64,000 bases of DNA from a virus, in IMG/VR virus record IMGVR_UViG_3300017731_001834, positions 1 through 64,000 of that record. One strand, 5' to 3'. Both the position numbers and the translations under genes were made by a program. A model generated the notes under the pieces. The model saw nothing but the letters and a program-made list of their open reading frames with translations. It ran no database searches and was not told where the DNA came from. Below are positions 24,599-60,169 of this stretch, piece by piece (within the stretch, counting starts at the first letter, position 1; each line of letters opens with the position of its first letter).

Positions 24599-25008
24599 TG
24601 AAGACTCAACTACTTTGCACATTTACCCAAAAGAACAATCTAAATGATGTCGTAAACTTGGTGATTGAATGTAACACAATTGTGTTCGACAAGATTTATG
24701 TGTTTGAAAATGGTAATGATAGTAATCAACTAATATGCACGTATAACGTTGAATACGAAGAGGACTTCGTGCAAGGTAGTCACGACACAATATCCTTACA
24801 CAGAAAAAAGATGACCAACACATTATACACTATTAATGCCCTCAATGATTTAATCAGAGAGCTGAATGGTGGAAGATTAGATAAGAGCTACCAAGTAAAT
24901 TGGGAAGATTATCAGAACTGCTTACTATTAACAAATGAAAATGGACTAAATAAAATACCAACTAAAATTTACACAATCGTCGATACTAAAACTTGGAATA
25001 AAAAATAG
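24598..25008 (+). CDS. Conserved T4-like phage protein, unknown
   Basis: A 136-residue alpha/beta protein. It starts MKTQLLCTFTQKNNL and contains DTISLHRKKMTNTLYTINAL and NWEDYQNCLLLT. I recall close relatives next to gp32 in marine T4-like phages, always without a known function; that is from memory. It overlaps the previous stop (TAATG). The following 86-base gap holds a candidate promoter for gp32. Probably a replication or recombination accessory protein. Confidence 0.65.
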   Translation: MKTQLLCTFTQKNNLNDVVNLVIECNTIVFDKIYVFENGNDSNQLICTYNVEYEEDFVQGSHDTISLHRKKMTNTLYTINALNDLIRELNGGRLDKSYQVNWEDYQNCLLLTNENGLNKIPTKIYTIVDTKTWNKK

Positions 25009-25010
25009 TA

Positions 25011-25038
25011 TTTACAAAAATTACTTTATACTTATATA
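25011..25038 (+). promoter_or_regulatory. Candidate promoter upstream of gp32
   Basis: TTTACA (25011-25016), 16 bases, TATATA (25033-25038), 56 bases before the gp32 start. It shares the string CTTATATACG with the promoter region at 40881. Strength and timing unknown. Confidence 0.4.
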
Positions 25039-25094
25039 CGAATCAACAAATGATTCCACTAAAAAATAATAAATTAAATAATAGGAGATAAAAA

Positions 25095-25841
25095 ATGGAC
25101 TTAAACGCAATAAAAAATCGTCTTAGTCAACTTCAGACTACAAACAACAGAACATCAAACCTTTGGAAACCATCACCTGGTACACAGGTTGTAAGGATTG
25201 CACCTTACAAATTCAATAAAGATAATCCTTTTATTGAATTATACTTTCACTATGATTTAGGTGGAAAGAATTATCTTTCACCAATTTCTTTTGGAAGGCC
25301 AGACCCGATTGAAGAGTTCGCTCAGAAATTGAAGTCAACTGGCTCTAAAGAAGACTATCGTCTTGGAAGAAAGATTGAAGCAAAGATGAGAACCTATGCT
25401 CCAATCGTTGTCAGAGGTGAAGAATCACAAGGTGTGAAGTTTTGGGGATTTGGTAAGACGGTTTATCAAGAGTTATTATCCATTATAGCAGACCCTGATT
25501 ATGGTGATATCACAGACACAACAAGTGGTCGTGATGTTTCTGTAGAATTCAAAACTGCAGAAGAAACAGGCGCATCGTTTCCATCTACATCAATCAGAGT
25601 TAAACCAAACATAACACCAATTACAGAAGACGCATCGCTACTTGAGACAATCAATAATTCTCAGAAGAATATTACTGAGATTTATCAAGAACGCTCATAT
25701 GATGAGTTGACAGACGCTTTAAATGAATATCTAAACGGAAGTTCTGAAGAAGAGAAAACCGAAGAGGTAACTGAAAAAGCTCAAAGTTCAACGGATGCGA
25801 AAGCAGCAGGAGACGCATTCGACGATTTGTTCAATAGTTAA
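25095..25841 (+). CDS. 32: Single-stranded DNA-binding protein (gp32-like)
   Basis: Coats single-stranded DNA and coordinates replication and recombination proteins. At 248 residues it is shorter than T4 gp32 (301). The core has SNLWKPSPGTQVVRIAPY, IELYFHYDLGGKNYLSP, KFWGFGKTVYQELL and SIIADPDYGDITD; the last 45 residues are very acidic (SSEEEKTEEVTEK ... FDDLFNS), the usual protein-interaction tail. The protein has no Cys at all, so the zinc-binding subdomain of T4 gp32 is absent. Ribosome site AGGAGATAAAAA. Followed at 21 bases by uvsX, its functional partner. Confidence 0.9.
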   Translation: MDLNAIKNRLSQLQTTNNRTSNLWKPSPGTQVVRIAPYKFNKDNPFIELYFHYDLGGKNYLSPISFGRPDPIEEFAQKLKSTGSKEDYRLGRKIEAKMRTYAPIVVRGEESQGVKFWGFGKTVYQELLSIIADPDYGDITDTTSGRDVSVEFKTAEETGASFPSTSIRVKPNITPITEDASLLETINNSQKNITEIYQERSYDELTDALNEYLNGSSEEEKTEEVTEKAQSSTDAKAAGDAFDDLFNS

Positions 25842-29385: not shown

Positions 29386-31392
29386 ATGGAAAATTTTAAG
29401 TTATCAGAAAAGTTTATAGACAAGTATAAAAGGAAAAAGGCTCCTTTTGGTTTTAACGGATTAGGTGAGTTGGTTTATATGAGAACCTATTCACGAATCA
29501 AAGAAAATGGAAAAAATGAGAGATGGTGGGAAACTGTTCAAAGGGTTGTTGAAGGCACCTACACAATGCAAAAAAATCATATCGAATCTCATCAGTTAGG
29601 TTGGAATGCCTGGCAAGCACAGAAGTCTGCTCAAGAGATGTATGATAGAATATTTCACATGAAGTTCTTACCACCAGGTCGTGGTTTATGGGCTATGGGA
29701 ACCGCCGTTACAGAAGAGAAAGGATTGTATGCGGCTTTAAACAATTGTGCTTTCGTATCAACAAAAACACTAAAGGAAGACTATTCAAAGCCATTTTGTT
29801 TCTTAATGGATGCAAGTATGTTAGGTGTTGGTGTAGGATTTGATACAAAGGGTGCTGGTGAAATTATCGTTAAAGGCGTTGATGAAGATAGAGAAACTAC
29901 GTACGTAATACCAGACACTCGTGAGGGTTGGGTAGAATCTTTGAAATTACTATTAGAAAGTTATTTTCATGGACAACCTATGGTTGAGTTTGATTACTCA
30001 AAGGTAAGACCAGAAGGTGAACCAATCAAGGGCTTCGGTGGTGTGTCAAGTGGGCCTGAACCTTTAATGGAAGTTCATGAAGATATCAGAGAAGTATTAC
30101 AAAAGAACAGTGGAGAACCAATAACAATCACAACAATAGTAGACATAATGAATCTTATAGGTAAATGTGTTGTCGCTGGTAATGTAAGAAGAACAGCAGA
30201 GATTGTATTCGGTGACCCATACAACGAAGAATACTTAGATTTAAAAAATTACAAAGTAAATCCACATAGAGACCAATATGGTTGGACATCAAACAACTCA
30301 ATATTCGCAGAGTTAGGTATGGATTATACAGAGGTTTCTAAGAGAGTTGTAGATAATGGTGAACCAGGTTTTGCTTGGTTAGATAACATGAGACATTACT
30401 CAAGGATGAAGAATGGTGGTGATAATAAAGACCATAGAGTTATGGGTGGTAATCCTTGTTTAGAACAATCATTAGAATCATATGAGCTATGTTGTCTTGT
30501 AGAAACATTTCCAAACAATCATGATTCATTAGAGGATTATCAACGTACCCTTAAATATGCATATCTGTATGCTAAGACGGTAACTCTTGGTAGAACTCAT
30601 TGGTCGGATACAAATAGGGTTATGTTAAGAAACAGACGAATCGGTTGTTCAGTAAGTGGTGTCGCTCAATTTATTACCAAACGTGGTATCCATGAATTAA
30701 GAGATTGGTTAGAGGGTGGTTATGATACGATTCAAGAATGGGATAAACAATATTCAGATTGGTTTGCAGTACCAAAGTCAATCAAGACTACCTCAGTAAA
30801 ACCAAGTGGTACGGTATCTCTTTTAGCAGGTGCTACACCAGGTCTTCATTATCCTGAATCACGATTCTACATTAGAAGAATCAGATTATCAAAACATTCA
30901 GAGTTGATTGAACCACTAAAAAAAGCAGGTTATAAGATTGAACCAGCATTTGGTTCAGAGGACACAACAATGGTTGTAGAGGTGCCAGTAGATGTAGGTG
31001 AGGGAATACGAACGGCGGGAGAACTCTCTATTTGGGAACAATTTAACATAGCAGCTTTTATGCAGAGACATTGGGCTGATAACCAAGTTAGTTGCACAGT
31101 GACGTTCGACCCACAGACAGAGGGAGAACAGATACCTCACGTATTAAACTACTTTCAATATCACCTAAAAGGTATTTCATTATTACCAAGACATGATTGG
31201 GGTGCTTATCCTCAAATGCCATACGAATCCATAGAAGAGAAAGAGTATGAAAAGCAAATTAAAGGTCTCGGTAAGTTATCATTCGGAGTAATCAAGAATG
31301 AAGAAGCAGAGATAGATAAGTTCTGCAATAATGATAATTGTGAAGTACCATCTCTTACAGGTGATAATGATGACCAAGACTATGCAAATTAA
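29386..31392 (+). CDS. nrdJ: Class II (B12-dependent) ribonucleotide reductase
   Basis: Converts ribonucleotides to deoxyribonucleotides with adenosylcobalamin as radical source. It has 668 residues, like the monomeric Lactobacillus RTPR type rather than the large NrdJ type. Visible are GRGLWAMGTA, NNCAFVST (C121, disulfide Cys), MLGVGVGFD, GNPCLEQSLESYELCC (catalytic Cys near 358, partner Cys near 369), VKPSGTVSLLAGATPG and a C-terminal redox pair, FCNNDNC. No NrdB-like subunit is encoded nearby. T4 itself uses class I NrdAB, so this is a replacement. The enzyme ties phage DNA synthesis to host cobalamin; an outer-membrane receptor gene follows 83 bases later. Confidence 0.93.
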   Translation: MENFKLSEKFIDKYKRKKAPFGFNGLGELVYMRTYSRIKENGKNERWWETVQRVVEGTYTMQKNHIESHQLGWNAWQAQKSAQEMYDRIFHMKFLPPGRGLWAMGTAVTEEKGLYAALNNCAFVSTKTLKEDYSKPFCFLMDASMLGVGVGFDTKGAGEIIVKGVDEDRETTYVIPDTREGWVESLKLLLESYFHGQPMVEFDYSKVRPEGEPIKGFGGVSSGPEPLMEVHEDIREVLQKNSGEPITITTIVDIMNLIGKCVVAGNVRRTAEIVFGDPYNEEYLDLKNYKVNPHRDQYGWTSNNSIFAELGMDYTEVSKRVVDNGEPGFAWLDNMRHYSRMKNGGDNKDHRVMGGNPCLEQSLESYELCCLVETFPNNHDSLEDYQRTLKYAYLYAKTVTLGRTHWSDTNRVMLRNRRIGCSVSGVAQFITKRGIHELRDWLEGGYDTIQEWDKQYSDWFAVPKSIKTTSVKPSGTVSLLAGATPGLHYPESRFYIRRIRLSKHSELIEPLKKAGYKIEPAFGSEDTTMVVEVPVDVGEGIRTAGELSIWEQFNIAAFMQRHWADNQVSCTVTFDPQTEGEQIPHVLNYFQYHLKGISLLPRHDWGAYPQMPYESIEEKEYEKQIKGLGKLSFGVIKNEEAEIDKFCNNDNCEVPSLTGDNDDQDYAN

Positions 31393-31394
31393 AA

Positions 31395-31438
31395 TTTCAC
31401 ATACAAATAGCGGACAGGCAGTAGACACACCTGTGAAA
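31395..31438 (+). promoter_or_regulatory. Inverted repeats in leader of receptor gene
   Basis: TTTCACA (31395-31401) pairs with TGTGAAA (31432-31438), and ACAGG (31414-31418) with CCTGT (31430-31434). The two pairings share bases and cannot form together. No T-run follows, so it is not a simple terminator. It may be an operator or alternative leader structure. Confidence 0.3.
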
Positions 31439-31475
31439 AAATGTGTCGTTCATAACAATAACAAGGAGATTCGAT

Positions 31476-34250
31476 ATGAAAAGTCGTAATCTAATTGCTA
31501 TGATGATGACTCTACTCACACCGATAATGTTGTTTTCACAATCGGTAACAGGAAAAGTTACATCAGAAGCAGGAGACCCCTTACCAAATGCTAACATTGT
31601 TGTAGTAGGAACCGAATTAGGTACAATTTCAGATGAAATTGGTACATTTGTACTTGATTTAGGTGCTGGTGACTACACAATTACAGCGACGGTAATTGGG
31701 TTTAAACCACAATCACAAACCGTGAAAGTAACAGAAGCAGATACAGATTTAATGATGGCTTTTGTTCTTCCACTAAACGTGATTGAATTATCAGACGTTG
31801 AGGTTTTGGCTTCAAGGGCTGATGATAAAACACCTGTTGCTTACACAACTGTAAGTAAAGAAGAGTTAGAAGTTCGTCTTGGGTCACAAGATATTCCAAT
31901 GGCTCTAAATACTACACCAAGTGTATATGCAACACAACAAGGTGGTGGTGCGGGTGATGCTCGTATCAATGTTCGTGGATTCAATCAAAGAAACGTAGCA
32001 GTTATGATTAACGGTGTTCCCCAAAATGATATGGAGAACGGATGGGTTTATTGGAGTAATTGGGACGGAGTAGCAGATGCAGCTAACTCTATTCAGTTAC
32101 AAAGAGGTCTATCGGCTGTTAATTTAGCTACACCATCAATTGGTGGAACTATGAACATCATAACAAATCCAGCTGGAGCTGAAAAAGGTGGTAAATTCAA
32201 ACAAGAAGGTGGTGCAGGTAATTTCTTGAAAACTACTTTTAACTACAATACTGGTTTGATGATGGGAGACAAGTTAGCATTGAGTGGAACTTTGGTTCGT
32301 AAGACTGGTGATGGTATCATCGACGCTACTTGGACAGACGCATGGGCTTATTATTTAGGTTCTAGTTTTCAGATGAATGAAAACAATAGATTTGAATTAT
32401 ATGCAATTGGCGCTCCACAACGTCACGGTCAAAATCTGTACAAACAGAATATCGCTACTTACTCACAAGAGTTAGCTGGTGATGTCGATGGATATGATGT
32501 CAATGCTTTTGCTGACGGTGCTAAGTTCCAAACAGAAGGTGGTCGTACATTTAATCAGAATTGGGCTCCTGTAAGTTCAGACTATACAGGTAAACAATAT
32601 TGGTATATGTATGGAGTTGGTGGACTATTTGGTGGTGGAAATCAAGACAGATATAACTCTGGTTTCTTAAATGAAAGAGAAAACTTCTTTCATAAGCCAT
32701 TAGTAAACCTAAACCACTTTATGACTATCAACGAAAAGACAAGACTAAGTTCAGTATTGTATTGGAGTGGTGGTTCAGGTGGTGGAACTGGTACATACGG
32801 TTCATCATTTAGAAAACCAGCTGTAGATGGTGAAAGGTGGTATAGAAGTTCACCATGGGGTTGGGATTGGGATGCAGCTATTGCAACCAATTCAAACAAC
32901 GTTGATGCTAACTTTGATGCGACAATGAATCGTTCAAAGGGTATTCTTCGTAACTCAATCAATCGTCAAGATACTTATGGTTTGATTTCAAAACTTAACT
33001 ATGAAGTTAGTGACGAACTTGAGATTCAACTTGGTTTAGATTGGAGAACTGCAGGTATAGAACACGCTCGTGAAGTTCGTGACTTACTTGGCGGTGACTA
33101 CTATGTAGACTATGCTGATGATAATGCACCTGATGGTAAAAAGGTCGGTTTAGGTGACATCATCGCTTATCACAATCACACTACAGTCGATTGGATTGGT
33201 GGATTCTTACAAGGTAACTACACTAAAGATAAACTAAATGTTTATGGTATGGGTGGAGTTTCAAGTATCAAGTATTCTTACCAAGACCACTTTACAGTTG
33301 CTGATGAAGTGATTACAGCAGATGCTATCTCAACTTTCCAAGTTAAGGGTGGAGCTATGTATGACGTAGATGATAATGTTAGTGTATTTGCTAACACAGG
33401 CTACGTTCAGAAACCACCTATCATGGATAACGTAATCTACTTTGATGGTACAGTCGCTTCAGACCCATCTAACGAAAAGTTCATCAGTTCAGAAGCTGGT
33501 GTAAACTTCAATACTGAGAATGTAGCAGTTAAAGTGAGTGCTTACAATACTGATTGGATGGATAGAAACCAAACTAAATCTGTAACAACAGGTCAAGGTG
33601 ACTCAGGTGATACTGACGTGATTTTCTTGAGTGGTATCAATCAGAAACACCAAGGTCTTGAGATTGAAGCTTCAATGAAACTTAATGACATGATTCGTTT
33701 AGACGGAGCAGTATCATTTGGTAAGTGGAAGTTTGATGGAGATGCAAAAGGTAACTATCAAGAGAATGAGTACAATGATGCAGGTCAGGTAATCGGTCTA
33801 AAGACCACACCTTACTCTTATGCACTTAATGGATTATTCGTGGGTGATATGCCTCAGACAGCTTATGTCATGGGTGCAACACTTACACCAATCAAGGGTC
33901 TTAGACTACAAGGTATCTTTAAGATGTACGATAAGAACTACGCTGATTGGAGTCCAAATGCACGTGAGTATGATGGAAGTGATGCTGATGCTGATAGAGA
34001 CCAAGTATGGATGGCACCAAAGTACAATCGTTTAGACCTACATGGTTCATACAAACTACCAAAAGTTGGTGGTCTTGATATGAGTCTAACTGGTCACATT
34101 TTCAACGCTCTTGACGCAGTTTATGTACAAGACGCAGTTGACAATTCACAATACAATGGTTTCGGTGATAAACTTCACCTACCACATAACGCAGAGGTAT
34201 TCTTAGGAACACCACGTTATGCTAACATTGGTATAGTTGTAAATTTCTAA
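31476..34250 (+). CDS. TonB-dependent outer-membrane receptor
   Basis: A complete 924-residue receptor for TonB-driven import of scarce nutrients. I chose ATG 31476 because ACAAGGAGATTCGAT precedes it and a classical signal peptide follows (MKSRNLIAMMMTLLTPIMLF, cleavage near FSQ-S). Residues ~24-95 are a carboxypeptidase-regulatory-like domain (VTGKVTSEAGDPLPNANIVV; GFKPQSQTVKV), then the plug (PSVYATQQGGGAGDARINVR, GFNQRNVAVMINGVPQNDME, SIGGTMNIIT), then a ~650-residue barrel ending in Phe (NIGIVVNF), as outer-membrane insertion requires. This layout is usual in the FCB group. No TonB/ExbBD genes are here. It has its own leader and terminator, and more CGT arginine codons than its neighbours by eye, suggesting fairly recent capture from a host. 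Confidence 0.93.
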   Translation: MKSRNLIAMMMTLLTPIMLFSQSVTGKVTSEAGDPLPNANIVVVGTELGTISDEIGTFVLDLGAGDYTITATVIGFKPQSQTVKVTEADTDLMMAFVLPLNVIELSDVEVLASRADDKTPVAYTTVSKEELEVRLGSQDIPMALNTTPSVYATQQGGGAGDARINVRGFNQRNVAVMINGVPQNDMENGWVYWSNWDGVADAANSIQLQRGLSAVNLATPSIGGTMNIITNPAGAEKGGKFKQEGGAGNFLKTTFNYNTGLMMGDKLALSGTLVRKTGDGIIDATWTDAWAYYLGSSFQMNENNRFELYAIGAPQRHGQNLYKQNIATYSQELAGDVDGYDVNAFADGAKFQTEGGRTFNQNWAPVSSDYTGKQYWYMYGVGGLFGGGNQDRYNSGFLNERENFFHKPLVNLNHFMTINEKTRLSSVLYWSGGSGGGTGTYGSSFRKPAVDGERWYRSSPWGWDWDAAIATNSNNVDANFDATMNRSKGILRNSINRQDTYGLISKLNYEVSDELEIQLGLDWRTAGIEHAREVRDLLGGDYYVDYADDNAPDGKKVGLGDIIAYHNHTTVDWIGGFLQGNYTKDKLNVYGMGGVSSIKYSYQDHFTVADEVITADAISTFQVKGGAMYDVDDNVSVFANTGYVQKPPIMDNVIYFDGTVASDPSNEKFISSEAGVNFNTENVAVKVSAYNTDWMDRNQTKSVTTGQGDSGDTDVIFLSGINQKHQGLEIEASMKLNDMIRLDGAVSFGKWKFDGDAKGNYQENEYNDAGQVIGLKTTPYSYALNGLFVGDMPQTAYVMGATLTPIKGLRLQGIFKMYDKNYADWSPNAREYDGSDADADRDQVWMAPKYNRLDLHGSYKLPKVGGLDMSLTGHIFNALDAVYVQDAVDNSQYNGFGDKLHLPHNAEVFLGTPRYANIGIVVNF

Positions 34251-34258
34251 GTAATTTT

Positions 34259-34284
34259 AGGGGGGATTAATTTCCCCCCTTTTT
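34259..34284 (+). terminator. Strong terminator after receptor gene
   Basis: Perfect stem AGGGGGGA (34259-34266), loop TTAATT, stem TCCCCCCT (34273-34280), then TTTT. Eight bases after the receptor stop; the most GC-rich hairpin in the window. Confidence 0.92.
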
Positions 34285-34296
34285 ACGGAGTATTAA

Positions 34297-34515
34297 ATGA
34301 ACGAAAAATTATATAAATATGGAGTGATATATCTTGGTACAGCCATTATGATGTTATCACCTTATTTTATAAATTCACATATAGGAAAGATAGGGATGTT
34401 AATTGGTTTAGCTCTACTTACTATTCAAACTCAAAAAACCAAACAATATAATTTATCCTTACTTAACATAGTAGGATTTTGTGGTTACTTATTCAGCTTA
34501 TATCAATCACTATGA
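34297..34515 (+). CDS. Small integral membrane protein
   Basis: A 72-residue protein with about three hydrophobic segments (YGVIYLGTAIMMLSPYFI; GKIGMLIGLALLTIQ; LNIVGFCGYLFSLY), so almost certainly in the inner membrane. Ribosome site CGGAG. Its stop overlaps the next start as ATGA. The size and fold recall half of a PnuC-like or other small transporter, but I cannot assign it. It may work with the P-loop protein that follows. Confidence 0.6.
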   Translation: MNEKLYKYGVIYLGTAIMMLSPYFINSHIGKIGMLIGLALLTIQTQKTKQYNLSLLNIVGFCGYLFSLYQSL

Positions 34516-35045
34516 GCAAATTAATAAATTTATTCGGAGGGCCAGGTATCGGAAAGTCCTCTATAGCAGCAGGGGTTTTTTACGAACTCAAAAGAAAACA
34601 TATAAGTTGTAATAATCCATACGAGTTTCCAAAGAGACTAGCATGGGATAACAACCTACCAGCGATAAAAGACCAGCTTTACGTATGTGCTAATCAACAT
34701 AGGGGAATAGCTGAATGTTATGGTAAGGTTGATTACATAGTTGTAGATTCACCAGTCTTATTCTCATTAATATATAAGACATGGTATAGTAAAGGTTATC
34801 CAGCCGAGTTTTATTCAGAAGCCTTTAATCAAATGGTTTTAGACCTACATAACAATTATGATAATATAAATGTAATGTTGGAACGACCAGAAGCAAATCA
34901 TAATGACGCTGAGAGATTTCAGAACTTAGAGGATTCAATCAAAATAGATAAACATTGTATCAAAACATTAGATGATAATAATATAGATTATCATACAATT
35001 AAAACGGATGATAATACCGTACAAAAAATTATTGAATTATTATAA
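34512..35045 (+). CDS. P-loop kinase-like ATPase
   Basis: A 177-residue protein from ATG 34512. Walker A is FGGPGIGKSS near residues 8-17 and a Walker B-like VDYIVVDSP lies near 75-83. The small size and the VDSPVLFSL segment resemble nucleoside/nucleotide kinase or NadR-kinase-like AAA proteins of phages. A lid-like motif (LERPEANHNDAERF) carries Arg residues that could contact phosphate. Coupling with the membrane protein upstream is compatible with a salvage pathway (import plus phosphorylation), but the substrate is unknown. Confidence 0.65.
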   Translation: MSKLINLFGGPGIGKSSIAAGVFYELKRKHISCNNPYEFPKRLAWDNNLPAIKDQLYVCANQHRGIAECYGKVDYIVVDSPVLFSLIYKTWYSKGYPAEFYSEAFNQMVLDLHNNYDNINVMLERPEANHNDAERFQNLEDSIKIDKHCIKTLDDNNIDYHTIKTDDNTVQKIIELL

Positions 35046-43458: not shown

Positions 43459-44847
43459 ATGTCTAAGAAAAAAATATTATTACTTTCAGATGATTTAAGA
43501 ATGTCAAGTGGTGTCGGTACAATGTCAAAAGAATTTGTTTTAGGCACAATAAATCATTATGATTGGGCTCAAATAGGTGGAGCTATAAAACATCCTGAGA
43601 ATGGTAAGAGGGTTGATATGAATCAAGTCTCAAGAGAAGAGACTGGCGTTGAAGATGCATCATTAACAATCTATCCAACCAGCGGATATGGTAATCCTGA
43701 TTTGTTAAGACAGATTATGGATTTAGAACAGCCAGATGCTATCTTACACTACACCGACCCAAGGTTTTGGAGATGGTTATACGATATGGAACATGAGATA
43801 AGACAAGAGATTCCAATATTCTATTACAATATTTGGGACGATTGGCCAGCTCCACAATACAATGAAAACTTTTATGAATGTTCTGACTTGATTATGAATA
43901 TATCAAAACAAACAGTAGCGATTGTAAATGAAGTTGCAAAGAATAAACCACGTACAAAAACTGATTGCACATACTTACCACATGGTATAAGTGAAAAATA
44001 TTTTAAACCAATATCAATATTTGATGATGAGTATAATAGTGTGTTGGAAATGAAAAAACAATTAACTGATGAAAATGTGGAATTTATTGTGTTTTACAAT
44101 AACAGAAATATCCGTCGTAAATTACCAGGTGATGTAATAATGGCATTTAAATATTTTTGTGATATGTTACCAAAAGAAGAAGCTGATAAATGTGCATTGT
44201 TAATGCATACTCAGCCAGTAGATGATAATGGTACAGATTTACCAGCAGTAGCCAAAGCAGTGGCACCAGATTGTAAAGTATACTTTAGTTCAAAAAAATT
44301 AGATGCAGATAAATTAAACTATCTTTATAATATGGCTGATGTTACGGTTAATATGGCTTCTAATGAGGGATTTGGATTGGGTACAGCAGAATCATTAATT
44401 GCTGGTACACCAATCGTTGTTAATGTTACAGGTGGATTACAAGACCAATGTGGTTTTAAACTTAATGGTAAACATATTACATCTGATGATTATAATGAAA
44501 TAAAGTCATTACATGATGATAGAAAATGGGCTCACAATGAAGAGTTAACTTGGGGTGATTGGGTTAAACCTGTTTGGCCATCAAATAGATGTTTGCAAGG
44601 TTCACCTCCCACACCATATATTTTTGACGATAGATGTAGATGGGATGATGTTGGTGATAACATATACGAATGGTATATGATGGATGAAGAAAAAAGAAGA
44701 GAGTGTGGAATGAAAGGACATGATTACGTAAAACGTGAGGATGTTATGATGACTTCCAAAATGATGTCTGACAATTTTATAGAACAAATGGACAAAGTTT
44801 TTTCTGAGTGGAAGCCAAGAAAAAGATTTACCATTTTTAAAGCATAG
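43459..44847 (+). CDS. Glycosyltransferase, GT4-like (GT-B)
   Basis: A 462-residue GT-B enzyme, first gene of the glycan cluster. N-terminal Rossmann fold KKILLLSDDLRMSSGVGTMS; the C-terminal nucleotide-sugar site has FYNNRNIRRK, YLYNMADVTVNMASNEGFGL and GTAESLIAGTPIVVN, with Glu in the EGFGLGTAESL motif of GT4. Likely cytoplasmic, transferring a sugar to a growing glycan. Ribosome site GAGGTTAT. The second GT4 gene starts 8 bases after it, and both share the same pattern. Donor and acceptor unknown. Confidence 0.85.
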   Translation: MSKKKILLLSDDLRMSSGVGTMSKEFVLGTINHYDWAQIGGAIKHPENGKRVDMNQVSREETGVEDASLTIYPTSGYGNPDLLRQIMDLEQPDAILHYTDPRFWRWLYDMEHEIRQEIPIFYYNIWDDWPAPQYNENFYECSDLIMNISKQTVAIVNEVAKNKPRTKTDCTYLPHGISEKYFKPISIFDDEYNSVLEMKKQLTDENVEFIVFYNNRNIRRKLPGDVIMAFKYFCDMLPKEEADKCALLMHTQPVDDNGTDLPAVAKAVAPDCKVYFSSKKLDADKLNYLYNMADVTVNMASNEGFGLGTAESLIAGTPIVVNVTGGLQDQCGFKLNGKHITSDDYNEIKSLHDDRKWAHNEELTWGDWVKPVWPSNRCLQGSPPTPYIFDDRCRWDDVGDNIYEWYMMDEEKRRECGMKGHDYVKREDVMMTSKMMSDNFIEQMDKVFSEWKPRKRFTIFKA

Positions 44848-44855
44848 AGGTTATA

Positions 44856-46184
44856 ATGAGTAAGCCAGTATTATTAGTAACAGCGCCTGTAGCAACAAGA
44901 AGTGGTTATGGAGCACACGCGAGAGATATAGTTCGTTCCTTAATTGAGTTAGATAAATATGACGTTAAGATTTGGAACGTACGTTGGGGAACCACTCCGT
45001 TAAATGCTTTAGATAAATCTTCTGAAAGGGATAAACCAATAATAGATAGATTGTTACAGACTCCACAACTACCTAATCAGCCTGATATACATATTCATAT
45101 CGTAGTTCCAAATGAATTTAGTCCAATTGGTAAATACAATATAGGTATTACGGCAGGTTTAGAATGCACGATTGTACCACCTGAATGGATGCAGGGATTA
45201 AATAAGATGGATATGAATATTGTTCCATCAACGTTTGTTTCTAATACCCTACGAAACATAAATTTTGATATAAAGGATGAAAAAACACAAGAGCTAAAAG
45301 GCGTATTAAAATTAGATAAACCCATGGAAGTTTTGTTTGAGGGTGTTGATAATACAGTTTACAAAAAGACTAAAGAGTTTAGTAAAGAGCTTGTTGATGA
45401 AATGAAATCTATAAATGAATCATTTAACTTTCTCTATGTAGGACATTGGTTACAAGGTGGATTAGGTGAAGATAGAAAAGATACAGGTATGTTAGTGAAA
45501 GTTTTCTTAGAGACTTTTAAGAACCAAAAAGTTAAACCTGGCTTAATACTAAAGACAAGTGGTGCTGGATTCTCTGTTTTAGATAGAGAGGAAATTCTCA
45601 AAAAAATTAGAGATATTAGAAATTCTATTAGTGGAGATTTACCTAACGTATATTTATTACATGGAGACTTACAAGACGAAGAAATAAATGAATTGTATAA
45701 TCATCCAAAAGTAAAAGCACACGTTAACTTAACACATGGTGAAGGATTTGGTAGACCATTGTTAGAAGCTTCAATATCAGGTAAACCAATCATAGCTTCA
45801 TCATGGAGTGGACAATTAGACTTCTTGAATTCAAATTCAAGCGTATTAGTTTCAGGTAGGATGACCGACGTACCAAAATCAGCTCTTCCAGAAAAGATGC
45901 ATGTTGATGGAACGCAATGGTTTACTGCTGATTATCAAGAAGCATCATCTTATATGAAAGACGTATATAAAAATTACAAAAAATATACATCTAATTCCAT
46001 GAAGTTAGGTAAAGTAAATGAATCATTGTTTTCTTTAAAAAGGATGACAAAAGAACTTGGTAAAATACTAGATAACTATGTTCCTGATTTTCCAAAAGAG
46101 GTTGAATTAAAGCTACCAAAGTTGAAAAAAGTAGGACAGAAAGTTAAACCAAAAATAGAATTACCAAAACTAAAGAGAGTATAA
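44856..46184 (+). CDS. Glycosyltransferase, GT4-like (GT-B)
   Basis: A 442-residue GT-B enzyme. PVLLVTAPVATRSGYGAHAR at the N-terminus; donor site HGEGFGRPLLEASISGKPII then SWSGQLDFL. The last ~40 residues are a Lys/Pro/Leu-rich repeat (VELKLPKLKKVGQKVKPK ... ELPKLKRV) unlike the rest, perhaps a membrane- or partner-binding tail. It shares a start/stop junction (TAATG) with the next gene. Probably acts with the GT4 at 43459 on the same glycan. Confidence 0.86.
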   Translation: MSKPVLLVTAPVATRSGYGAHARDIVRSLIELDKYDVKIWNVRWGTTPLNALDKSSERDKPIIDRLLQTPQLPNQPDIHIHIVVPNEFSPIGKYNIGITAGLECTIVPPEWMQGLNKMDMNIVPSTFVSNTLRNINFDIKDEKTQELKGVLKLDKPMEVLFEGVDNTVYKKTKEFSKELVDEMKSINESFNFLYVGHWLQGGLGEDRKDTGMLVKVFLETFKNQKVKPGLILKTSGAGFSVLDREEILKKIRDIRNSISGDLPNVYLLHGDLQDEEINELYNHPKVKAHVNLTHGEGFGRPLLEASISGKPIIASSWSGQLDFLNSNSSVLVSGRMTDVPKSALPEKMHVDGTQWFTADYQEASSYMKDVYKNYKKYTSNSMKLGKVNESLFSLKRMTKELGKILDNYVPDFPKEVELKLPKLKKVGQKVKPKIELPKLKRV

Positions 46185-46627
46185 TGGAAATAAAAATAAA
46201 TTGCCCAATTTGTTATAGCACAAAAAAATGTTTTGAAGAAAAACAAGAGGAATATAGTTCTTATCTTTGTTTTAAATGTGGTTATATGAGTGATTCAAGG
46301 TATGAAATCGGTAGTCTAAGTGTTTTAAATAACATTAAAAAATCACCAAAGTTAGTTCAAGATACGGTATACGAAGATAAAGAAAGAAATATAGTTTGGC
46401 TATTATCTGTGATAAACATGGGACAGATGGGTATGATTTATCCTGAGGGTTCAGCTGAAATATATGAGTGGAAGTATGCAAAGGTTGTTACTATACCTGA
46501 GGAAGAAAGAAAAAACTACGATGGTCACGTTCAGAGATTAGATGTAGAAAATGCTAAATCATTTCATAAGTTTGATTTCTTATCTGCTTGTGATGAATTG
46601 GGTATGACCAAAAGAGTATTTAACTAA
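46184..46627 (+). CDS. Zinc-ribbon hypothetical protein
   Basis: A 147-residue protein with an N-terminal zinc ribbon (CPICYSTKKC near 8-17, then CFKCGYMSD near 33) and a C-terminal alpha/beta region (NIVWLLSVINMGQMGMIYPE; FHKFDFLSACDELGMT). I do not recognise the family. It is embedded between glycosyltransferase genes with one-base junctions on both sides, which suggests co-expression but not necessarily a role in sugar chemistry; it may be an ordinary phage gene carried within the block. Confidence 0.55.
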   Translation: MEIKINCPICYSTKKCFEEKQEEYSSYLCFKCGYMSDSRYEIGSLSVLNNIKKSPKLVQDTVYEDKERNIVWLLSVINMGQMGMIYPEGSAEIYEWKYAKVVTIPEEERKNYDGHVQRLDVENAKSFHKFDFLSACDELGMTKRVFN

Positions 46628-47094
46628 TGCCTAAACAAGTATACGCTTGGGGAAAAGTAAAAGCTGGTGATATTATATCTTTTAGGTATAACCAAAACCT
46701 AAATACTCTTTTAGTTTTAAATGTTCAATTACCTTTCAGAAAGAAAGATGGCAGTAAATCACTTCATTTGGTTGGATTGAAATTAGAAGAAAAAGGAACT
46801 ATTAGGACAATACGAAGTCAACCTATGCTAGTAACAATATTAGAAACAATTGGTGAAATAAAATTAGTAGAGGGTAGTGATGATATTTTTAGGTTAGACA
46901 TACCAAATACTCAACGACTCGGTGTTAGAAGAGACGTGTATATTAAAATAGAAAGATTTTTAAAAGCAAATAGCGTATATCGAACATACGATTATATGAA
47001 AGCTAAAAAATCACAAGTGTTTCTTGAACCAATTGAATTACCAAAAAATGTTATAGAAGCGATAATATCAGATGAGGAATTAAGTGAAGATTAG
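46627..47094 (+). CDS. Hypothetical protein, beta-rich
   Basis: A 155-residue protein with a beta-rich first half (KAGDIISFRYNQNLNTLLVL; SLHLVGLKLEEKGTI) reminiscent of SH3- or Hint-like small barrels, and a helical end (KFLKANSVYRTYDYMKAKKS) that is acidic at the very C-terminus. Not recognised. It shares one base with the upstream stop, and the next gene starts inside its end at GTG 47084. Confidence 0.55.
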   Translation: MPKQVYAWGKVKAGDIISFRYNQNLNTLLVLNVQLPFRKKDGSKSLHLVGLKLEEKGTIRTIRSQPMLVTILETIGEIKLVEGSDDIFRLDIPNTQRLGVRRDVYIKIERFLKANSVYRTYDYMKAKKSQVFLEPIELPKNVIEAIISDEELSED

Positions 47095-47728
47095 TTATGG
47101 TATAACAGTCCACAATGAGGCTGATGAATTAAATAGGTTATTAGAAACTCTAATACACAAAACAGATGTAGAAGATGAGATAGTTATTTGTGTTGATGGT
47201 AACGATGAAAAAGTACAAGAAGTTATTATGAGTTGGGTTCAACAATATGGAAGTGATGATATTGATAAAAAGAAAGACATCATAGTATATAATAGAAAAC
47301 TTGAAAATGACTTCGCAGCTCATAAAAATTCAGTTATAGAAAAATCTACAGGTGATTATATATTTCATATTGACGCCGACGAGTATCCAAGTGATGCTTT
47401 GTTACTACACATGAAACCTATCTTAGAAGCAAACGATATAGATTTGATTTGGGTTCCAAGAATAAACACGGTTGATGGCTTAACTGAGAGTCACATACAA
47501 AAATGGGGATGGAGAGTTACAGAAAATGGTTGGGTAAATTATCCTGATTATCAAGCAAGAATATTTAAAAGAGATAAAGATATAAAATGGATTAAACCAG
47601 TTCATGAAATTATTTCAGGTGCTAACACCTATTCACATTTGCCACCAAATGAAACTCTAAGTCTATATCATCCTAAGACAATAGATAAACAAGAAAAACA
47701 AAATGCACTATATGAGTCAATAATATGA
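47084..47728 (+). CDS. Glycosyltransferase, GT2-like (GT-A)
   Basis: A 214-residue GT-A enzyme. ISYGITVHNEADELNRLLET is the classic GT2 start; EIVICVDGND carries the first nucleotide-binding Asp; GDYIFHIDADEYPSDALL holds the DxD metal motif; the region RIFKRDKDIKWIKPVHE closes the active site. The start is GTG 47084 with GAGG upstream, overlapping the previous gene by 11 bases. No membrane segments, so it is a cytosolic transferase. Confidence 0.85.
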   Translation: MKISYGITVHNEADELNRLLETLIHKTDVEDEIVICVDGNDEKVQEVIMSWVQQYGSDDIDKKKDIIVYNRKLENDFAAHKNSVIEKSTGDYIFHIDADEYPSDALLLHMKPILEANDIDLIWVPRINTVDGLTESHIQKWGWRVTENGWVNYPDYQARIFKRDKDIKWIKPVHEIISGANTYSHLPPNETLSLYHPKTIDKQEKQNALYESII

Positions 47729-49161
47729 TTTTTTGGAGAATATTAGATAATGATGTTTATCCTGTAGAAGAAGTAACAAAACTTGGCTTCAATGAACAAG
47801 ATGGAGTTAGGGTACCAGATGAGTATTTAGAGGGTAGAAATTTCATAGTCATGCGTAGTTGTCATGGTCTTGGAGATTGGGGTGTTATATCCGCAATGCC
47901 AAGATTATTAAAAGAAAAGTATGAAGATTGTAAGGTCTATGTACCATCACCAAAGTTACTCGAAAATTTATTTGGGGCTACCGATGATTGGGATAGTTGG
48001 TCAAATCCTTATGCTCATGTTGAAACTATTTTTTCTAATAATCCCTATGTTGATGGTTTTATTGATAGTTTTGAGGGTGATATATACCACGACCACTACA
48101 GAGTATACAATTTAGATGAACCAAATATATCAATGATAAAACAGATGTTAAAGTTCTGGCAGTTTGAGGAAAGTGAAATGAAAGATTGTATGCCAGAGTT
48201 ATATTTTTCAGAGGAAGAAAAAGCTTTAGGTGAGGAAGTGATAGCTCAGTATACAGCTAATTTAGAGTTTGCTTGTTTATTAATATCAGATAGATACGAT
48301 TACACAATGGATAAAGAGATGAGACAAGTTATAGATGAAGGTATACCTCATTTCTATTGGACGGAAAGACCGATTGAACAAACATCATTTCACGATGTTT
48401 ACAAAGCGATGGATTTAAGACACGTCCCAATTAGAATACAACTTTATATAAAATCACAGGCTAAATATAACGTTGGTAATCAGGTTGGAACCTCACAATT
48501 ATGTGCCAGATACAATCCTACACACACTATACAAAGACAATTTCCAATAGCTCATAACTTTGTAGATAACGAAAATTTAATTACTAATGAAGAGAAGAGA
48601 TTATTATTAAAAGGTCTACCTGATAAAACTGAATCAAAAACAACAACAAGTTTAAAATTTAAAGCAGACTTCTATGATTACTTTAAGGGAAAAAGTGAGG
48701 ACTTAAAAATATTAGAGATTGGTTCTTCACTTGGACACTCCACTAAATTATTAAGTCATCTTTTTAAAAAAGTTATAGCTGTTGATAATTTAGAATTTAG
48801 ACATTTAGAATCACAAAAGATAAATGGTGATAAGGATAATATAGATTATGTTGTGATGGATGTTTATGAAGATAGATGGAACTTTGAAGAAATAGACGCT
48901 GTCTTTATTGATTGCGTTCACGATTATAATCATGTGAAAAGTGATATTAATAACTCTTTATCATTACTAAAATCAGGTGGTTATTTAATCTTTGATGACT
49001 ATGGTTTATTTCCAGAAATAAAAAAAGCAGTTGATGAATATATTGATGATAGCAAATTAAAAATTATTGAAAAAGTTGGACACTATAAAGGAGCATATTA
49101 TCCAACAACACAAAACAAAGTATTAAAAGATAGAGAGGGCATTATATGTCAGGTCGTGTAG
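47725..49161 (+). CDS. GT9-like domain fused to SAM methyltransferase
   Basis: A 478-residue, two-domain protein. Residues ~35-290 look like a GT9 (ADP-heptose transferase-like) fold: NFIVMRSCHGLGDWGVISAM, KVYVPSPKLLENLFG, and a quasi C-terminal domain ending QLCARYNPTHTIQRQF. Residues ~310-470 are a class I methyltransferase: LKILEIGSSLGHSTKLLS (motif I), VIAVDNLEFRH, DAVFIDCVHDYNHVKSDI, GGYLIFDDYG. Such a fusion suggests a glycan is extended and methylated by one polypeptide. The GT9 half is less certain than the methyltransferase half. ATGA overlap upstream. Confidence 0.72.
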   Translation: MIFWRILDNDVYPVEEVTKLGFNEQDGVRVPDEYLEGRNFIVMRSCHGLGDWGVISAMPRLLKEKYEDCKVYVPSPKLLENLFGATDDWDSWSNPYAHVETIFSNNPYVDGFIDSFEGDIYHDHYRVYNLDEPNISMIKQMLKFWQFEESEMKDCMPELYFSEEEKALGEEVIAQYTANLEFACLLISDRYDYTMDKEMRQVIDEGIPHFYWTERPIEQTSFHDVYKAMDLRHVPIRIQLYIKSQAKYNVGNQVGTSQLCARYNPTHTIQRQFPIAHNFVDNENLITNEEKRLLLKGLPDKTESKTTTSLKFKADFYDYFKGKSEDLKILEIGSSLGHSTKLLSHLFKKVIAVDNLEFRHLESQKINGDKDNIDYVVMDVYEDRWNFEEIDAVFIDCVHDYNHVKSDINNSLSLLKSGGYLIFDDYGLFPEIKKAVDEYIDDSKLKIIEKVGHYKGAYYPTTQNKVLKDREGIICQVV

Positions 49162-49838
49162 TCTATACTTCAATTTTTGGTGATTATGATGATAAACAAG
49201 AACAGCAGTTACCAGAGGGATGGGAATGGAAATGTTTTGATGAGACTAATAGTGTAAAGTTTTATTCCGATAACAATAGAAATGCAAAAAAGTTCAAAGT
49301 TTTACCTCATAGATGTTTTGGTGTGGATTATGAGTATAGTATTTTTATTGATGGTAATATGAAAGTGGTTGGAAATATTGACGAACTGATTGATAAATAT
49401 CTGAGTGATGCTAACGTTGCTTTTTATAGTCATAACAATAACTCGTTAGATGCTCGTAATTGTGCATATGAAGAGGCTAAAACAATATTTTCTTTGGGTG
49501 AAAGAAATATGAAAGCAACACCAGAAAGAGGAATGTTAAATTATAAGGATAACCCAAAGATTATAAAAAAACAAATGGATAGATATGCTCATGAGGGATT
49601 TCCAACAAGTAATGGTTTAATTACAGGCATGGTTATATTGAGAAGACACAATGAATCTGATTGTATGAAGGTGATGGAAGATTGGTGGACTGAAATAAAA
49701 TACGGAAGTAAGAGAGACCAACTAAGTTTTAATTATGTGGCTTGGAAAAACAATCTTAAGTTTAATTATATGGATGGTGATTCAAGAAACAATGATTATT
49801 TTATTAGAGACACTAAACCACACAAGGGTAAAAAATAA
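49146..49838 (+). CDS. DUF616-type glycosyltransferase-like protein
   Basis: A 230-residue protein of the DUF616 pattern: RVVYTSIFGDYDDKQEQQLP, then FKVLPHRCFGVDYEYSIFID with the GN motif (DGN) in place of DxD, then THEGFP-like AHEGFPTSNGLITGMVILRR and a late QLSFNYVAW. Members are GT-A-fold enzymes found in capsule and O-antigen loci. Starts 15 bases inside the previous gene. Likely adds a sugar; substrate unknown. Confidence 0.75.
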   Translation: MSGRVVYTSIFGDYDDKQEQQLPEGWEWKCFDETNSVKFYSDNNRNAKKFKVLPHRCFGVDYEYSIFIDGNMKVVGNIDELIDKYLSDANVAFYSHNNNSLDARNCAYEEAKTIFSLGERNMKATPERGMLNYKDNPKIIKKQMDRYAHEGFPTSNGLITGMVILRRHNESDCMKVMEDWWTEIKYGSKRDQLSFNYVAWKNNLKFNYMDGDSRNNDYFIRDTKPHKGKK

Positions 49839-50623
49839 TGAAAAAAATAGCTATTATAGGTCATGGTTATGTAGGTAAGGCGATGAGTAAATTTTTTGAG
49901 GCTCATTATGAATTAGAGATATATGACCCACCAGCAGGTTATGATGTTAGTAAAGAAGAGGTAAATGATTGTGAGGCAGCTTTTGTTTGTGTACCAACTC
50001 CAAGGAGTGAGGATGGAAGTTGTGATACCTCTCTCGTTGAGGAAGTTGTTAGTTGGATTGAAACAGATTTCATAGTGATAAAATCCACCATTTCAGTTGG
50101 TACGACAGATAGGTTAGTGAAAAAATACAATAAGAGAATAGTATTTTCACCTGAGTACGCTGGAGAATCAACATATTGGAGTCCCTATCTTTTCCATACT
50201 GATATGAAAGAGACTCCGTTTTTTACTTTTGGTGGTGATGAGAGAGTATGTAGTGATGCGATTGACCTAATTTTACCTGTTGTTGGCCCTTGTAAAAAAT
50301 ATAATATAAGTGATGCTAAAACAGCTGAGATGGCTAAATATATGGAGAATGCATTCTACGCAACTAAGGTAGCATTTTGTAATGAGTTATATGATATCTG
50401 TGAGTCAGCTGACGTAGATTGGAATCAAGCTAGAGAGTTATGGTTATCAGACCCAAGAATTAATCCAATGCATACCGCCGTGTTTAAAGATAATAGAGGG
50501 TTTGGTGGAAAGTGTTTACCTAAAGATACAAGCGCTTTAGTTAGTATGGCTAAAGACTTTGGTGTACAATCAGATTTATTAGAGGGTGTTTTAAGCTCAA
50601 ATGATAAGGTAAGGAACAAATGA
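49838..50623 (+). CDS. UDP-sugar (UDP-glucose) 6-dehydrogenase-like, short
   Basis: A 261-residue member of the UDP-glucose/GDP-mannose dehydrogenase family, which oxidises a nucleotide sugar to a uronic acid with NAD. GHGYVGKAMSKFF is the dinucleotide site, FVCVPTPRSEDGSCDTS and KSTISVGTTDRL follow, and GFGGKCLPKDTSAL contains the catalytic Cys. Full enzymes are about 390-450 residues; here the C-terminal UDP-binding domain is missing and the protein ends soon after the central helix. Either a minimal form exists in phages or it has changed its role. One-base and four-base junctions with its neighbours. Confidence 0.85.
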   Translation: MKKIAIIGHGYVGKAMSKFFEAHYELEIYDPPAGYDVSKEEVNDCEAAFVCVPTPRSEDGSCDTSLVEEVVSWIETDFIVIKSTISVGTTDRLVKKYNKRIVFSPEYAGESTYWSPYLFHTDMKETPFFTFGGDERVCSDAIDLILPVVGPCKKYNISDAKTAEMAKYMENAFYATKVAFCNELYDICESADVDWNQARELWLSDPRINPMHTAVFKDNRGFGGKCLPKDTSALVSMAKDFGVQSDLLEGVLSSNDKVRNK

Positions 50624-51426
50624 AAAAGAACGTAGTATTGATGCCTTGGATTGAACGTGAACAATCAATCGGAACGAGTGGCATAGGTGAGTCTACTAGA
50701 ACACGTGGATATCAATATGGTATGGATTCTTGGAAAAAGTGGTGTGATAAAAATAATGTAGAATTCTTTTTGATGGATACTTTACTCATGCCTGAAACAG
50801 AGATGGTTATAACATGGCAAAGGTGGTATGTTTTAGAGATACTTAAAAACAATGAGATAGATTATGACCAAGTTTTATTAGTTGATGCTGATTGTATTAT
50901 TCATCCTGATTGTCCAAACTTCTTTGAATTGACAGATGGAAAGTTTTCAACATCTTTCTGTAATGGTGATTTCGAATGGGTAAATAGAAGTATAAAGGGA
51001 TACTCACAAAAGTTTTTTGATACGGATTATTTAATGATGGCATCAGATTTCTTTCAAACAGGCTTTGTCATATTAAATAAAGACCATGAAGAGTTCTTAA
51101 ATTATGTAATAGATTTTTATTGGAAGAATCAAGCAGAAATCATAGAGTCATATGATGTAATAAGAACAGGTAGTGACCAGCCGTTAATTAATTTATTATC
51201 AACTAAATTTGGTGTGGATGTAAACTTTTTACCAAATAAATATTCTACTGTGGACATTGGTCGGAAAAATTTATTCTATAATGATACAAGATGTTGGTGG
51301 GAAGATAAATTAGATAATCTATACAACACAAGTTACATTTATCAGTTCAACGCAATATCACAAAATCCTTTGAATAGGGATAGAAGCTATTGGATGAAAA
51401 GAATTTATGAGGAGTTATACAAATGA
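50620..51426 (+). CDS. GT-A-fold glycosyltransferase-like protein
   Basis: A 268-residue protein with a nucleotide-sugar site like GT8 or related GT-A enzymes: YDQVLLVDADCIIHPDCPNF contains DxD, FQTGFVILNKDHEEF forms the acceptor loop, and GSDQPLINLL is a further conserved stretch. ATGA overlap with both neighbours and an AAGG ribosome site. Donor and acceptor unknown. Confidence 0.75.
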   Translation: MKKNVVLMPWIEREQSIGTSGIGESTRTRGYQYGMDSWKKWCDKNNVEFFLMDTLLMPETEMVITWQRWYVLEILKNNEIDYDQVLLVDADCIIHPDCPNFFELTDGKFSTSFCNGDFEWVNRSIKGYSQKFFDTDYLMMASDFFQTGFVILNKDHEEFLNYVIDFYWKNQAEIIESYDVIRTGSDQPLINLLSTKFGVDVNFLPNKYSTVDIGRKNLFYNDTRCWWEDKLDNLYNTSYIYQFNAISQNPLNRDRSYWMKRIYEELYK

Positions 51427-52226
51427 AAATATTGTTAACAGGTTCTGATGGTTTTATAGGTAAAAACGTTTACAAAAGAATTAATGATAATATAGCTCCA
51501 ATAGAAATATTTTGTATAGAAAAAGATTTTATTAATAGTGTAAATTGGAAAACTGATTTAGAAGAGTATGTAAAACAAAATGATGTCGTACTTCACATTG
51601 GAGCAATATCTGATACGATGTTAAAAGATGCTAATAAGATGATGAAGTATAATTATCTATTTAGTAAAGAACTTTTTGATTTAGCTCAGAAACATAATAA
51701 AAAGGTGGTTTACTCATCATCAGCAGCTAACACAGGTGAAAGTGGTACTCCGTCAAATATCTATGGTTGGTCTAAATTTATTACAGAACAATATGGTTTG
51801 GCTAAAGTAAATAACTTTTACGCTTTGAGATATTTTAATGTATATGGTCCTGGTGAAGAACACAAAGGTAAAATGGCATCGGTGGCACATCAAGCTTGGA
51901 AGATAGGTTCATTCACCTTATTTCCAAAAAAACCTGAAAGGGATTTTGTTTACATAGATGATGTGGTTGATGCGACAATATATCCAATATTCAATGATGT
52001 TAAACCTGGTGTGTATGAAGTCGGAAGTGGTGAAGCACGTACCTTTGAAGACGTTTTAGATATAATGGAAATTCCTTTTGAATATAAAGGTGAGTACGAA
52101 ATACCCAAAGGTTATCAATTCTTTACCCAATCAGAATCAAAACTTTTTATGGAGGGTTGGCAACCTAAATATAGTTTGGAAGATGGTTTACAAAAATATA
52201 AGGATTACCTAAATGGAGTCGTGTAG
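51423..52226 (+). CDS. NAD-dependent sugar epimerase, HldD-like
   Basis: A 267-residue extended short-chain dehydrogenase. TGSDGFIGKNVYKRI is the NAD motif, VVYSSSAANTG and IYGWSKFITEQ supply Ser and YxxxK, and RYFNVYGPGEEHKGKMASVA closely follows the pattern of ADP-L-glycero-D-manno-heptose 6-epimerase, as does GVYEVGSGEARTFEDV. It probably makes an epimerised heptose- or hexose-nucleotide for the GT9 enzyme that follows it. At 267 residues it is shorter than HldD (~310). Heptose chemistry fits a Gram-negative surface sugar. Confidence 0.82.
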   Translation: MKILLTGSDGFIGKNVYKRINDNIAPIEIFCIEKDFINSVNWKTDLEEYVKQNDVVLHIGAISDTMLKDANKMMKYNYLFSKELFDLAQKHNKKVVYSSSAANTGESGTPSNIYGWSKFITEQYGLAKVNNFYALRYFNVYGPGEEHKGKMASVAHQAWKIGSFTLFPKKPERDFVYIDDVVDATIYPIFNDVKPGVYEVGSGEARTFEDVLDIMEIPFEYKGEYEIPKGYQFFTQSESKLFMEGWQPKYSLEDGLQKYKDYLNGVV

Positions 52227-53331: not shown

Positions 53332-54089
53332 ACGTTGAAATTATTTTTGCTGAATTTGGTGGAAGAGGTGCAGCTAATCAAAAATGGGTAAGTGATATTG
53401 GTAGATTAGACCCAACATACGATAGTGTGAAAAATTATTTTCCTGAAGCGAAGATAGTTTGTTATACCGATGATGAATCCATTGGTGACGGCTATGATGT
53501 TGAGGTGAGATTTATCGACTCCGATAGCACACCATTTGATAAAGATTATAAAGAGGGTAGTGGAAAGTTAAAATGGGGATATCATTGTTGTGATTATTAT
53601 CAGATAAAGGGACTCTTAGAATCTAAGGCAGATATAGCTATAGCGGTAGATTCAGATTTAATGTTTGTATCTGATGAGGTGAGAACTATAATTCCGATTA
53701 TAGAAAAGTTTGGTATTTGTTGTCCACAGAATGAAAGACAACTTGTCAAGGTTGATGGTATTCATACAAGGGGTAATGATGGAGATTATCACATCGGTGA
53801 GGACGTAAGTCGTGGTAATATTCTAACTTATGATTTATGGTGGACTGGCTTTAACACAAAGGATGATAGAGGTAGAACTTATCTAAAAGAGTTCTTGAGG
53901 TTGATGGAGACAAACCCAAAAAGAGGCCCACTACAATTATCTCGTGCAGCTTGGAACACAGGTTGTTTCCCATATCCAATGCCAAAACAATGGGGAGTTG
54001 GTTCGGGTCACATTGGATGTGGTGATGAGATTATACTACACGTCGGTCACGAAAATGTACAAGACCATTATTTGGAAAAAAGAATATAA
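53328..54089 (+). CDS. GT-A-like glycosyltransferase candidate
   Basis: A 253-residue protein: VEIIFAEFGGRGAANQKWVS, AKIVCYTDDESI, then KADIAIAVDSDLMFVSDEVR with a DxD-type DSD motif, and a late GSGHIGCGDEIILHVGH. The fold looks GT-A-like, but I cannot place the family. ATGA junction upstream, one-base junction downstream. Function in the glycan pathway is inferred from these motifs and the location. Confidence 0.65.
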   Translation: MNVEIIFAEFGGRGAANQKWVSDIGRLDPTYDSVKNYFPEAKIVCYTDDESIGDGYDVEVRFIDSDSTPFDKDYKEGSGKLKWGYHCCDYYQIKGLLESKADIAIAVDSDLMFVSDEVRTIIPIIEKFGICCPQNERQLVKVDGIHTRGNDGDYHIGEDVSRGNILTYDLWWTGFNTKDDRGRTYLKEFLRLMETNPKRGPLQLSRAAWNTGCFPYPMPKQWGVGSGHIGCGDEIILHVGHENVQDHYLEKRI

Positions 54090-60168: not shown

Positions 60169-60169
60169 A

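Follow-up and report, generated by a model that had tools for sequence, protein, structure and literature searches.

Why should a T4-like phage carry a complete host-type outer-membrane receptor, and what could such a gene do for the phage? This question is raised by an open reading frame for a TonB-dependent receptor (TBDR) in a 71,822-bp linear IMG/VR virus record, the first 64,000 nucleotides of which constitute the stretch of DNA analyzed here (the window). The record carries T4-like phage markers, namely tail sheath, tail fibres, a B-family polymerase, a DnaB-type helicase, RecA, a clamp loader, a baseplate hub and a gp32-type single-stranded DNA-binding protein (SSB), and no tRNA was found in the phage sequence. 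A sequence-only reading of the locus had described the gene as a self-contained cargo unit and proposed that it might swap the surface receptor, act as a decoy or feed the host late in infection. The features discussed below are listed in Table 1.

Table 1. Features of the receptor locus and of the gp32-type gene (window positions; residue numbers for the receptor layout).
Feature	Position	Strand	Basis or remark
gp32-type SSB gene	25095-25841		PF08804
Adenosylcobalamin-dependent (class II) ribonucleoside-triphosphate reductase (RNR)	29386..31392	+	TIGR02505, 368.6 bits (cut-off 340)
TTTCACATAC box, head of unit	31395..31404	+	only exact copy in window
H-type RNA pseudoknot in 5' leader	31414..31447	+	conserved with compensatory changes
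Pseudoknot helix S1	31414-31418/31430-31434		ACAGG/CCUGU
Pseudoknot helix S2	31424-31429/31442-31447		GACACA/UGUGUC
Third loop of pseudoknot	31435-31441		A-rich
Shine-Dalgarno AAGGAG	31463..31468	+	sequence; outside pseudoknot
TBDR	31476..34250	+	ATG start, 924 aa
TBDR layout	residues ~22-100 (CarboxypepD_reg), ~106-115 (likely TonB box), 117-225 (plug)		signal sequence in front; barrel ending in Phe
Intrinsic-terminator-like hairpin	34260..34278	+	perfect stem and T tail; best of 25-44 kb (region scanned)

The description of the gene as a full-length and intact host-type TBDR was borne out by its complete ATG-initiated frame (also readable from a GTG at 31443), by Pfam matches that all exceed their cut-offs (CarbopepD_reg_2, 1.8e-16; Plug PF07715, 4.7e-15; CarboxypepD_reg) and by the C-terminal Phe, which is present in 91 of 91 phage copies and 36 of 37 host copies. 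The N-terminal signal sequence was called by eye. Immediately before the plug lies a candidate TonB box, LSDVEVLASRA, in which E109, A112, S113 and R114 are invariant among 62 sequences. An AF2 model with about 24 strands (pLDDT 76, pTM 0.74) matched solved TonB-dependent transporters in Foldseek with TM scores to the target of ~0.6-0.75, the closest being the small-ligand transporters PqqU/YncD, FhuA, Fiu, FoxA and FecA. The plug domain and the predicted outer-membrane barrel with its C-terminal Phe signal place the protein in the TBDR class. Membership of the SusC/RagA group was not supported (TIGR04056, 61.7 bits against a cut-off of 368), and an informal look at the surroundings revealed no SusD-like neighbour. 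Likewise, no partner lipoprotein or operon hinting at a substrate was noticed beside the phage or the host gene.

Relatives of the TBDR were found in 316 viral contigs in one scan of IMG/VR, in which most viral records are fragments, and viral queries by alignment and by host sequence gave back one and the same phage lineage. Their identity to the window TBDR ranges from 68 to 100% and usually exceeds that of the DNA polymerase. The class II RNR gene stands directly upstream of the window TBDR; of the RNR loci whose contigs extend far enough downstream, 118 have the TBDR as the next gene, five have it after an insert of ~1.1 kb, and six have no TBDR but the polymerase gene directly next. In L013 this insert is a glutamine synthetase gene. 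Such a gene directly precedes or follows the TBDR in L013 and L037, and ORFs of similar size occupy corresponding places in L039, L064, L071 and L081. In a second context, found in other phages, the TBDR stands behind an hsp20 gene and a gene for a membrane protein. Each of the 15 TBDR-bearing records checked, of up to 131.8 kb, contains a single copy. Inactivating changes in related genomes, which would have spoken against a functional gene, were also looked for: among distinct viral copies with room on their contig, 93 of 94 are open, and the stop in the remaining copy precedes its own ATG. The concern that the window might be a chimera is answered, since the same RNR-TBDR junction recurs in contigs assembled from many different metagenomes; those of 3300017786, 3300025128, 3300017728, 3300017759 and 3300017781 encode identical TBDR or RNR proteins. 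The TBDR is a conserved single-copy core gene of a T4-like phage lineage, and the data do not support calling it cargo if an optional passenger is meant.

Two further observations concern the same neighbourhood. In L018 and L019, which have the hsp20 context, the TBDR is 79% identical to that of the window and the next gene, for a kinase, shares 97% identity with window positions 34479-35045, which suggests that recombination passes through the terminator region. The RNR genes of L035 (record G010), L080, L069 and L070 are interrupted by other ORFs or enlarged to ~1011 aa, which probably reflects introns or inteins with homing endonucleases.

The origin of the receptor was addressed by the phylogeny that the sequence-only reading had suggested, with Marinimicrobia and Bacteroidota as candidate sources, and the outcome was Marinimicrobia (Fidelibacterota), not Bacteroidota. 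Nearly all host relatives in genome contigs belong to this phylum, and the phage TBDRs form one clade nested within Fidelibacterota (SH-aLRT 100, and 99.6 in a second tree that includes L083). Two apparent exceptions, L082 in a Flavobacteriales bin and L132 in a Euryarchaeota bin, have the phage gene order and are mis-binned phage. The host orthologue occurs once per genome in 12 of 12 genomes, with 65-82% identity to the host query, among 11 to 27 TBDR hits per genome; the captured gene therefore corresponds to a conserved core receptor. These data are consistent with a single capture of a single-copy host core gene by an ancestor of the phage lineage, and Marinimicrobia are the likely hosts of the phage, as judged from the TBDR gene only. 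A host-binned sequence, L083, falls inside the phage clade, and moving it outside was rejected (AU test, p 3.7e-61). In this Marinimicrobia-binned contig (positions 986-3736), an aminotransferase-like gene accompanies two tandem TBDRs, one of which belongs to the phage clade and is without the pseudoknot leader; it may represent a phage-to-host transfer.

To what extent the captured receptor is still maintained can be read from its substitution pattern. The dN/dS of the whole gene is 0.175 among phages and 0.114 among hosts, the host values being derived from 15 qualifying pairs only. The plug is the most constrained part (0.069 in phages, 0.028 in hosts), and the N-terminal CarboxypepD_reg domain is relaxed in the phages (0.44 versus 0.07 in hosts), which suggests that some function has been loosened. 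Extracellular loops, taken from the predicted structure, are overall no more variable than barrel strands in the phages, and no TBDR position shows a fixed difference between phages and hosts. Taken together, the low overall ratio, the constrained plug, the unexceptional loops and the lack of fixed differences point to a working transporter rather than to an altered receptor that blocks entry.

The gene also stands out in its composition. The comparison with flanking genes confirmed both the excess of CGT arginine codons noted by eye (16 of 30 Arg codons, versus 51 of 461 in 29 other window genes; Fisher p = 8.5e-8) and a tetranucleotide profile that puts the gene with the most aberrant segments of the window. 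Across the phages, the CGT fraction is 0.38 in the TBDR, 0.15 in the RNR, 0.18 in the polymerase and 0.17 in the helicase. Recent transfer was rejected as the source of this bias, because the host orthologues exceed their own neighbours equally (0.38 versus 0.16 in other host genes). The excess may thus be read as an inherited and maintained signature of high expression, a tie that is soft because host ribosomal genes are only moderately enriched in CGT (0.31 on average, range 0.11-0.53). A perfect hairpin with a T run within 90 nt past the stop codon was found for 58 of 91 phage and 28 of 37 host TBDRs; by the same criterion there were none behind 78 RNR, 58 polymerase and 63 helicase genes. 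The window copy, which the sequence-only reading had ranked as the strongest terminator of the window, came first in the region scanned (25-44 kb).

The leader of the gene contains overlapping inverted repeats, with the exact arms GACACA/TGTGTC and TTTCACA/TGTGAAA. Arrangements of the type ACAGG-GACACA-CCTGT-TGTGTC arise 0-2 times per shuffled window, so that the window sequence alone is weak evidence for a pseudoknot. The comparison across phage leaders, however, is decisive for the predicted H-type fold and overturned an explanation of the repeats as chance. The pseudoknot occurs in 75 of 75 distinct phage leaders. In the leader alignment, 97.0% of cells are paired (shuffles, 89.2 ± 0.5), 59 cells carry double changes (11.7 ± 2.8) and the covariation score is 0.244 (0.109), levels reached in none of 500 shuffles. 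These shuffles ignore relatedness; a control in which the pairing partners were slid by 1-3 columns does not, and it reduced pairing to at most 51%. Unpaired bases beyond the helices are strongly conserved as well. The distance from the end of S2 to the Shine-Dalgarno sequence is 13-24 nt (median 18, 74 leaders), and that from the end of the knot to the start codon is 24-36 nt.

The pseudoknot is tied only to the TBDR gene and is phage-specific as far as examined. When viral contigs were scanned with its pattern, the TBDR followed 63 of 75 loci among the matches listed and six contigs ended first; the six others showed no pairing and were dismissed as chance. With a covariance model, each of 14 TBDR-carrying phage records gave a single strong hit (46-64 bits), located at the TBDR, and three RNR contigs without a TBDR gave none. 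The pattern was absent from 199 genomes of the host phylum and the knot from the host TBDR leaders examined; three of 100 host genomes gave weak covariance-model matches (22-27 bits), none of them near the TBDR orthologue, and these were taken as chance. Rfam gave no match up to an E value of 5 in 8 kb, and a further search gave only sub-threshold chance matches. The knot accompanies the TBDR into the hsp20 context. Because leader, gene and terminator stay together in two unrelated genome contexts, they do form a self-contained unit, as had been proposed. At the head of this unit, 54 of 89 phage TBDR copies have an upstream box of the CACATAC type, as do three host leaders (0.56 expected); the TTTCACATAC box is possibly part of a promoter. 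No T4 late-promoter-like motifs were found just upstream of the TBDR.

What, then, does the phage gain from the receptor? The gene is host-derived, resides in a viral genome, is intact and is under purifying selection, and it thereby qualifies as a viral auxiliary metabolic gene. We lean towards the interpretation that it serves nutrient uptake under phage-specific RNA control. A T4-like ancestor would have taken the single-copy core TBDR from a Marinimicrobia host, as the tree supports, and the phages have evidently kept it intact as one unit. Its codon bias and its own terminator make high-level synthesis probable, and the product would be exported to the outer membrane of the infected host and, together with the host TonB-ExbBD, could sustain or raise the uptake of a scarce small nutrient during phage nucleotide and DNA synthesis. 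The gene stands beside nucleotide metabolism, and glutamine synthetase adjoins it in some relatives. Feeding of the host fits best among the roles that had been proposed. The same conserved loops would, against a transporter role, also be expected if the phage's own tail must bind them. Superinfection exclusion, in which the phage copy replaces or dilutes the host surface receptor so that related phages cannot adsorb, appears unlikely. TBDRs are common phage receptors, as established for FhuA with T5, solved complexes are among the fold matches, and the window holds a large set of surface-glycan genes. The loops, however, are overall no more variable than the strands, fixed differences from the host protein are lacking, and the strongest constraint falls on the plug (dN/dS 0.07), something for which a simple decoy would have no use. 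With plug and barrel kept by selection, both the receptor swap and the decoy are disfavoured. It is more improbable still that the receptor imports vitamin B12 for the B12-dependent RNR, although the latter lies directly upstream in 118 loci. Cobalamin riboswitches occur in 18 of 20 host genomes, but none is at the orthologue in the 12 genomes in which both were mapped, and seven of them precede a different Plug-domain TBDR that is 20-24% identical to the phage protein. The phage leader is likewise without a cobalamin riboswitch, and another set of phages has the TBDR beside hsp20 instead; a BtuB-type B12 receptor was therefore rejected as the leading idea. That the gene is a passenger, neutral or accidental, or that the assembly is chimeric, could account for the deviant composition and codon use, yet is hardly credible: the junctions are repeated across many independent assemblies, all copies are intact and under purifying selection, and the leader is conserved with compensatory changes. 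The comparative data refute this reading in practice.

Regarding the leader, we consider the chances even that the knot belongs to a new class of phage regulatory RNA, either a riboswitch or a protein-bound operator, which matches synthesis of the acquired nutrient receptor of the outer membrane to the infection state, in a lineage that remodels host uptake. The 5' pseudoknot would set the translation or stability of the mRNA. Most likely, as in the T4 gene 32 operator, a protein or ligand binds the knot and then affects the adjacent unstructured leader. The knot is less likely to hide the ribosome-binding site directly, because this site lies beyond it and not inside it. The main rival, possible but on the doubtful side, is that the knot acts as a metabolite riboswitch, with the transported substrate or a metabolite of the nucleotide pathway as its ligand. 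It would agree with the compact H-type knot, the A-rich third loop and the conserved unpaired bases, a combination seen in switches of the preQ1 and SAM/SAH type. Pseudoknot riboswitches have been described (PMC7367207, PMC11625349), and marine phages do carry riboswitches, if rarely (PMC9004378). The spacing to the Shine-Dalgarno sequence (13-24 nt) speaks against such a switch, as does the linkage to one gene only and the absence from hosts, unlike most metabolite switches.

Marinimicrobia are a major, largely uncultured group, and metabolic enzymes in marine phages are known. The new elements are a TBDR conserved beside a class II RNR throughout a phage lineage, its capture from Marinimicrobia as supported by the tree, and a codon signature that has been maintained; foremost among them is the pseudoknot leader, which is specific to this gene. 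An outer-membrane receptor as core gene of an abundant phage lineage would mean that phages act on nutrient entry in Marinimicrobia. The 34-nt leader RNA, confined to phages in the searches made and of no known family, offers a direct handle, as its partner is accessible to RNA biochemistry without host culture, and the TBDR substrate, once identified, would tell what a conserved core receptor of Marinimicrobia imports. Elsewhere in the window, positions 44000-63500 hold a surface-glycan block with glycosyltransferases, a UDP-glucose dehydrogenase, a nucleotide-sugar epimerase and methyltransferases, and the phage may remodel host surface sugars too. A cytidylyltransferase-like domain fused to a PEP mutase (55210-56520) suggests phage-encoded phosphonate decoration of glycans or lipids.

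In the open-access literature, no paper on TBDRs in Marinimicrobia phages was found, and a study of B12-dependent RTPR in virioplankton mentions neither TonB nor Marinimicrobia (PMC10547690). The closest precedents are the marine megaphage Mar_Mega_1 and the huge phage LR745206, which carry a SusC-type TBDR for which nutrient uptake was proposed (PMC9723777). They share with our phage a TBDR in a marine phage, and a search of BFVD gave a marine-phage SusC as its sole full-length viral fold match (~12% identity by structure alignment); they differ in the SusC type, in their very large size and in that no lineage-wide linkage or leader RNA was described. The best PDB sequence match is XusA (PDB 9GBC), a Bacteroides xenosiderophore transporter (PMC13142918) that matches over residues 24-232 only, the N-terminal part, and has the CarboxypepD_reg and plug architecture in common with the phage protein. 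XusA works with the lipoprotein XusB, whereas no such partner was noticed beside the phage or host gene. PqqU (YncD) and FhuA are the closest solved folds, but at 12-13% identity they indicate a common fold without information on the ligand. The Marinimicrobia core TBDR is an orthologue, mostly 55-68% identical, with the same domains, C-terminal Phe, CGT excess and terminator; it differs in often standing behind a tRNA and an SRAP gene, in having no pseudoknot leader and in its more constrained N-terminal domain. For the leader, the nearest parallel is the T4 gene 32 operator, where cooperative binding of the SSB over an unstructured ribosome-binding region is nucleated at a pseudoknot (PMC535899). 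That operator controls the SSB gene, whereas the window knot precedes the TBDR, and the leader of the window phage's own gp32 gene is without a knot of the TBDR type. The latter leader (25000-25094) contains a hairpin and UUAA repeats, present in many relatives, and is a possible autoregulation site. Nevertheless, the T4 operator and the TBDR leader both belong to T4-like phages, and both have an H-type pseudoknot of ~30 nt ahead of an unstructured leader stretch and the ribosome-binding site.
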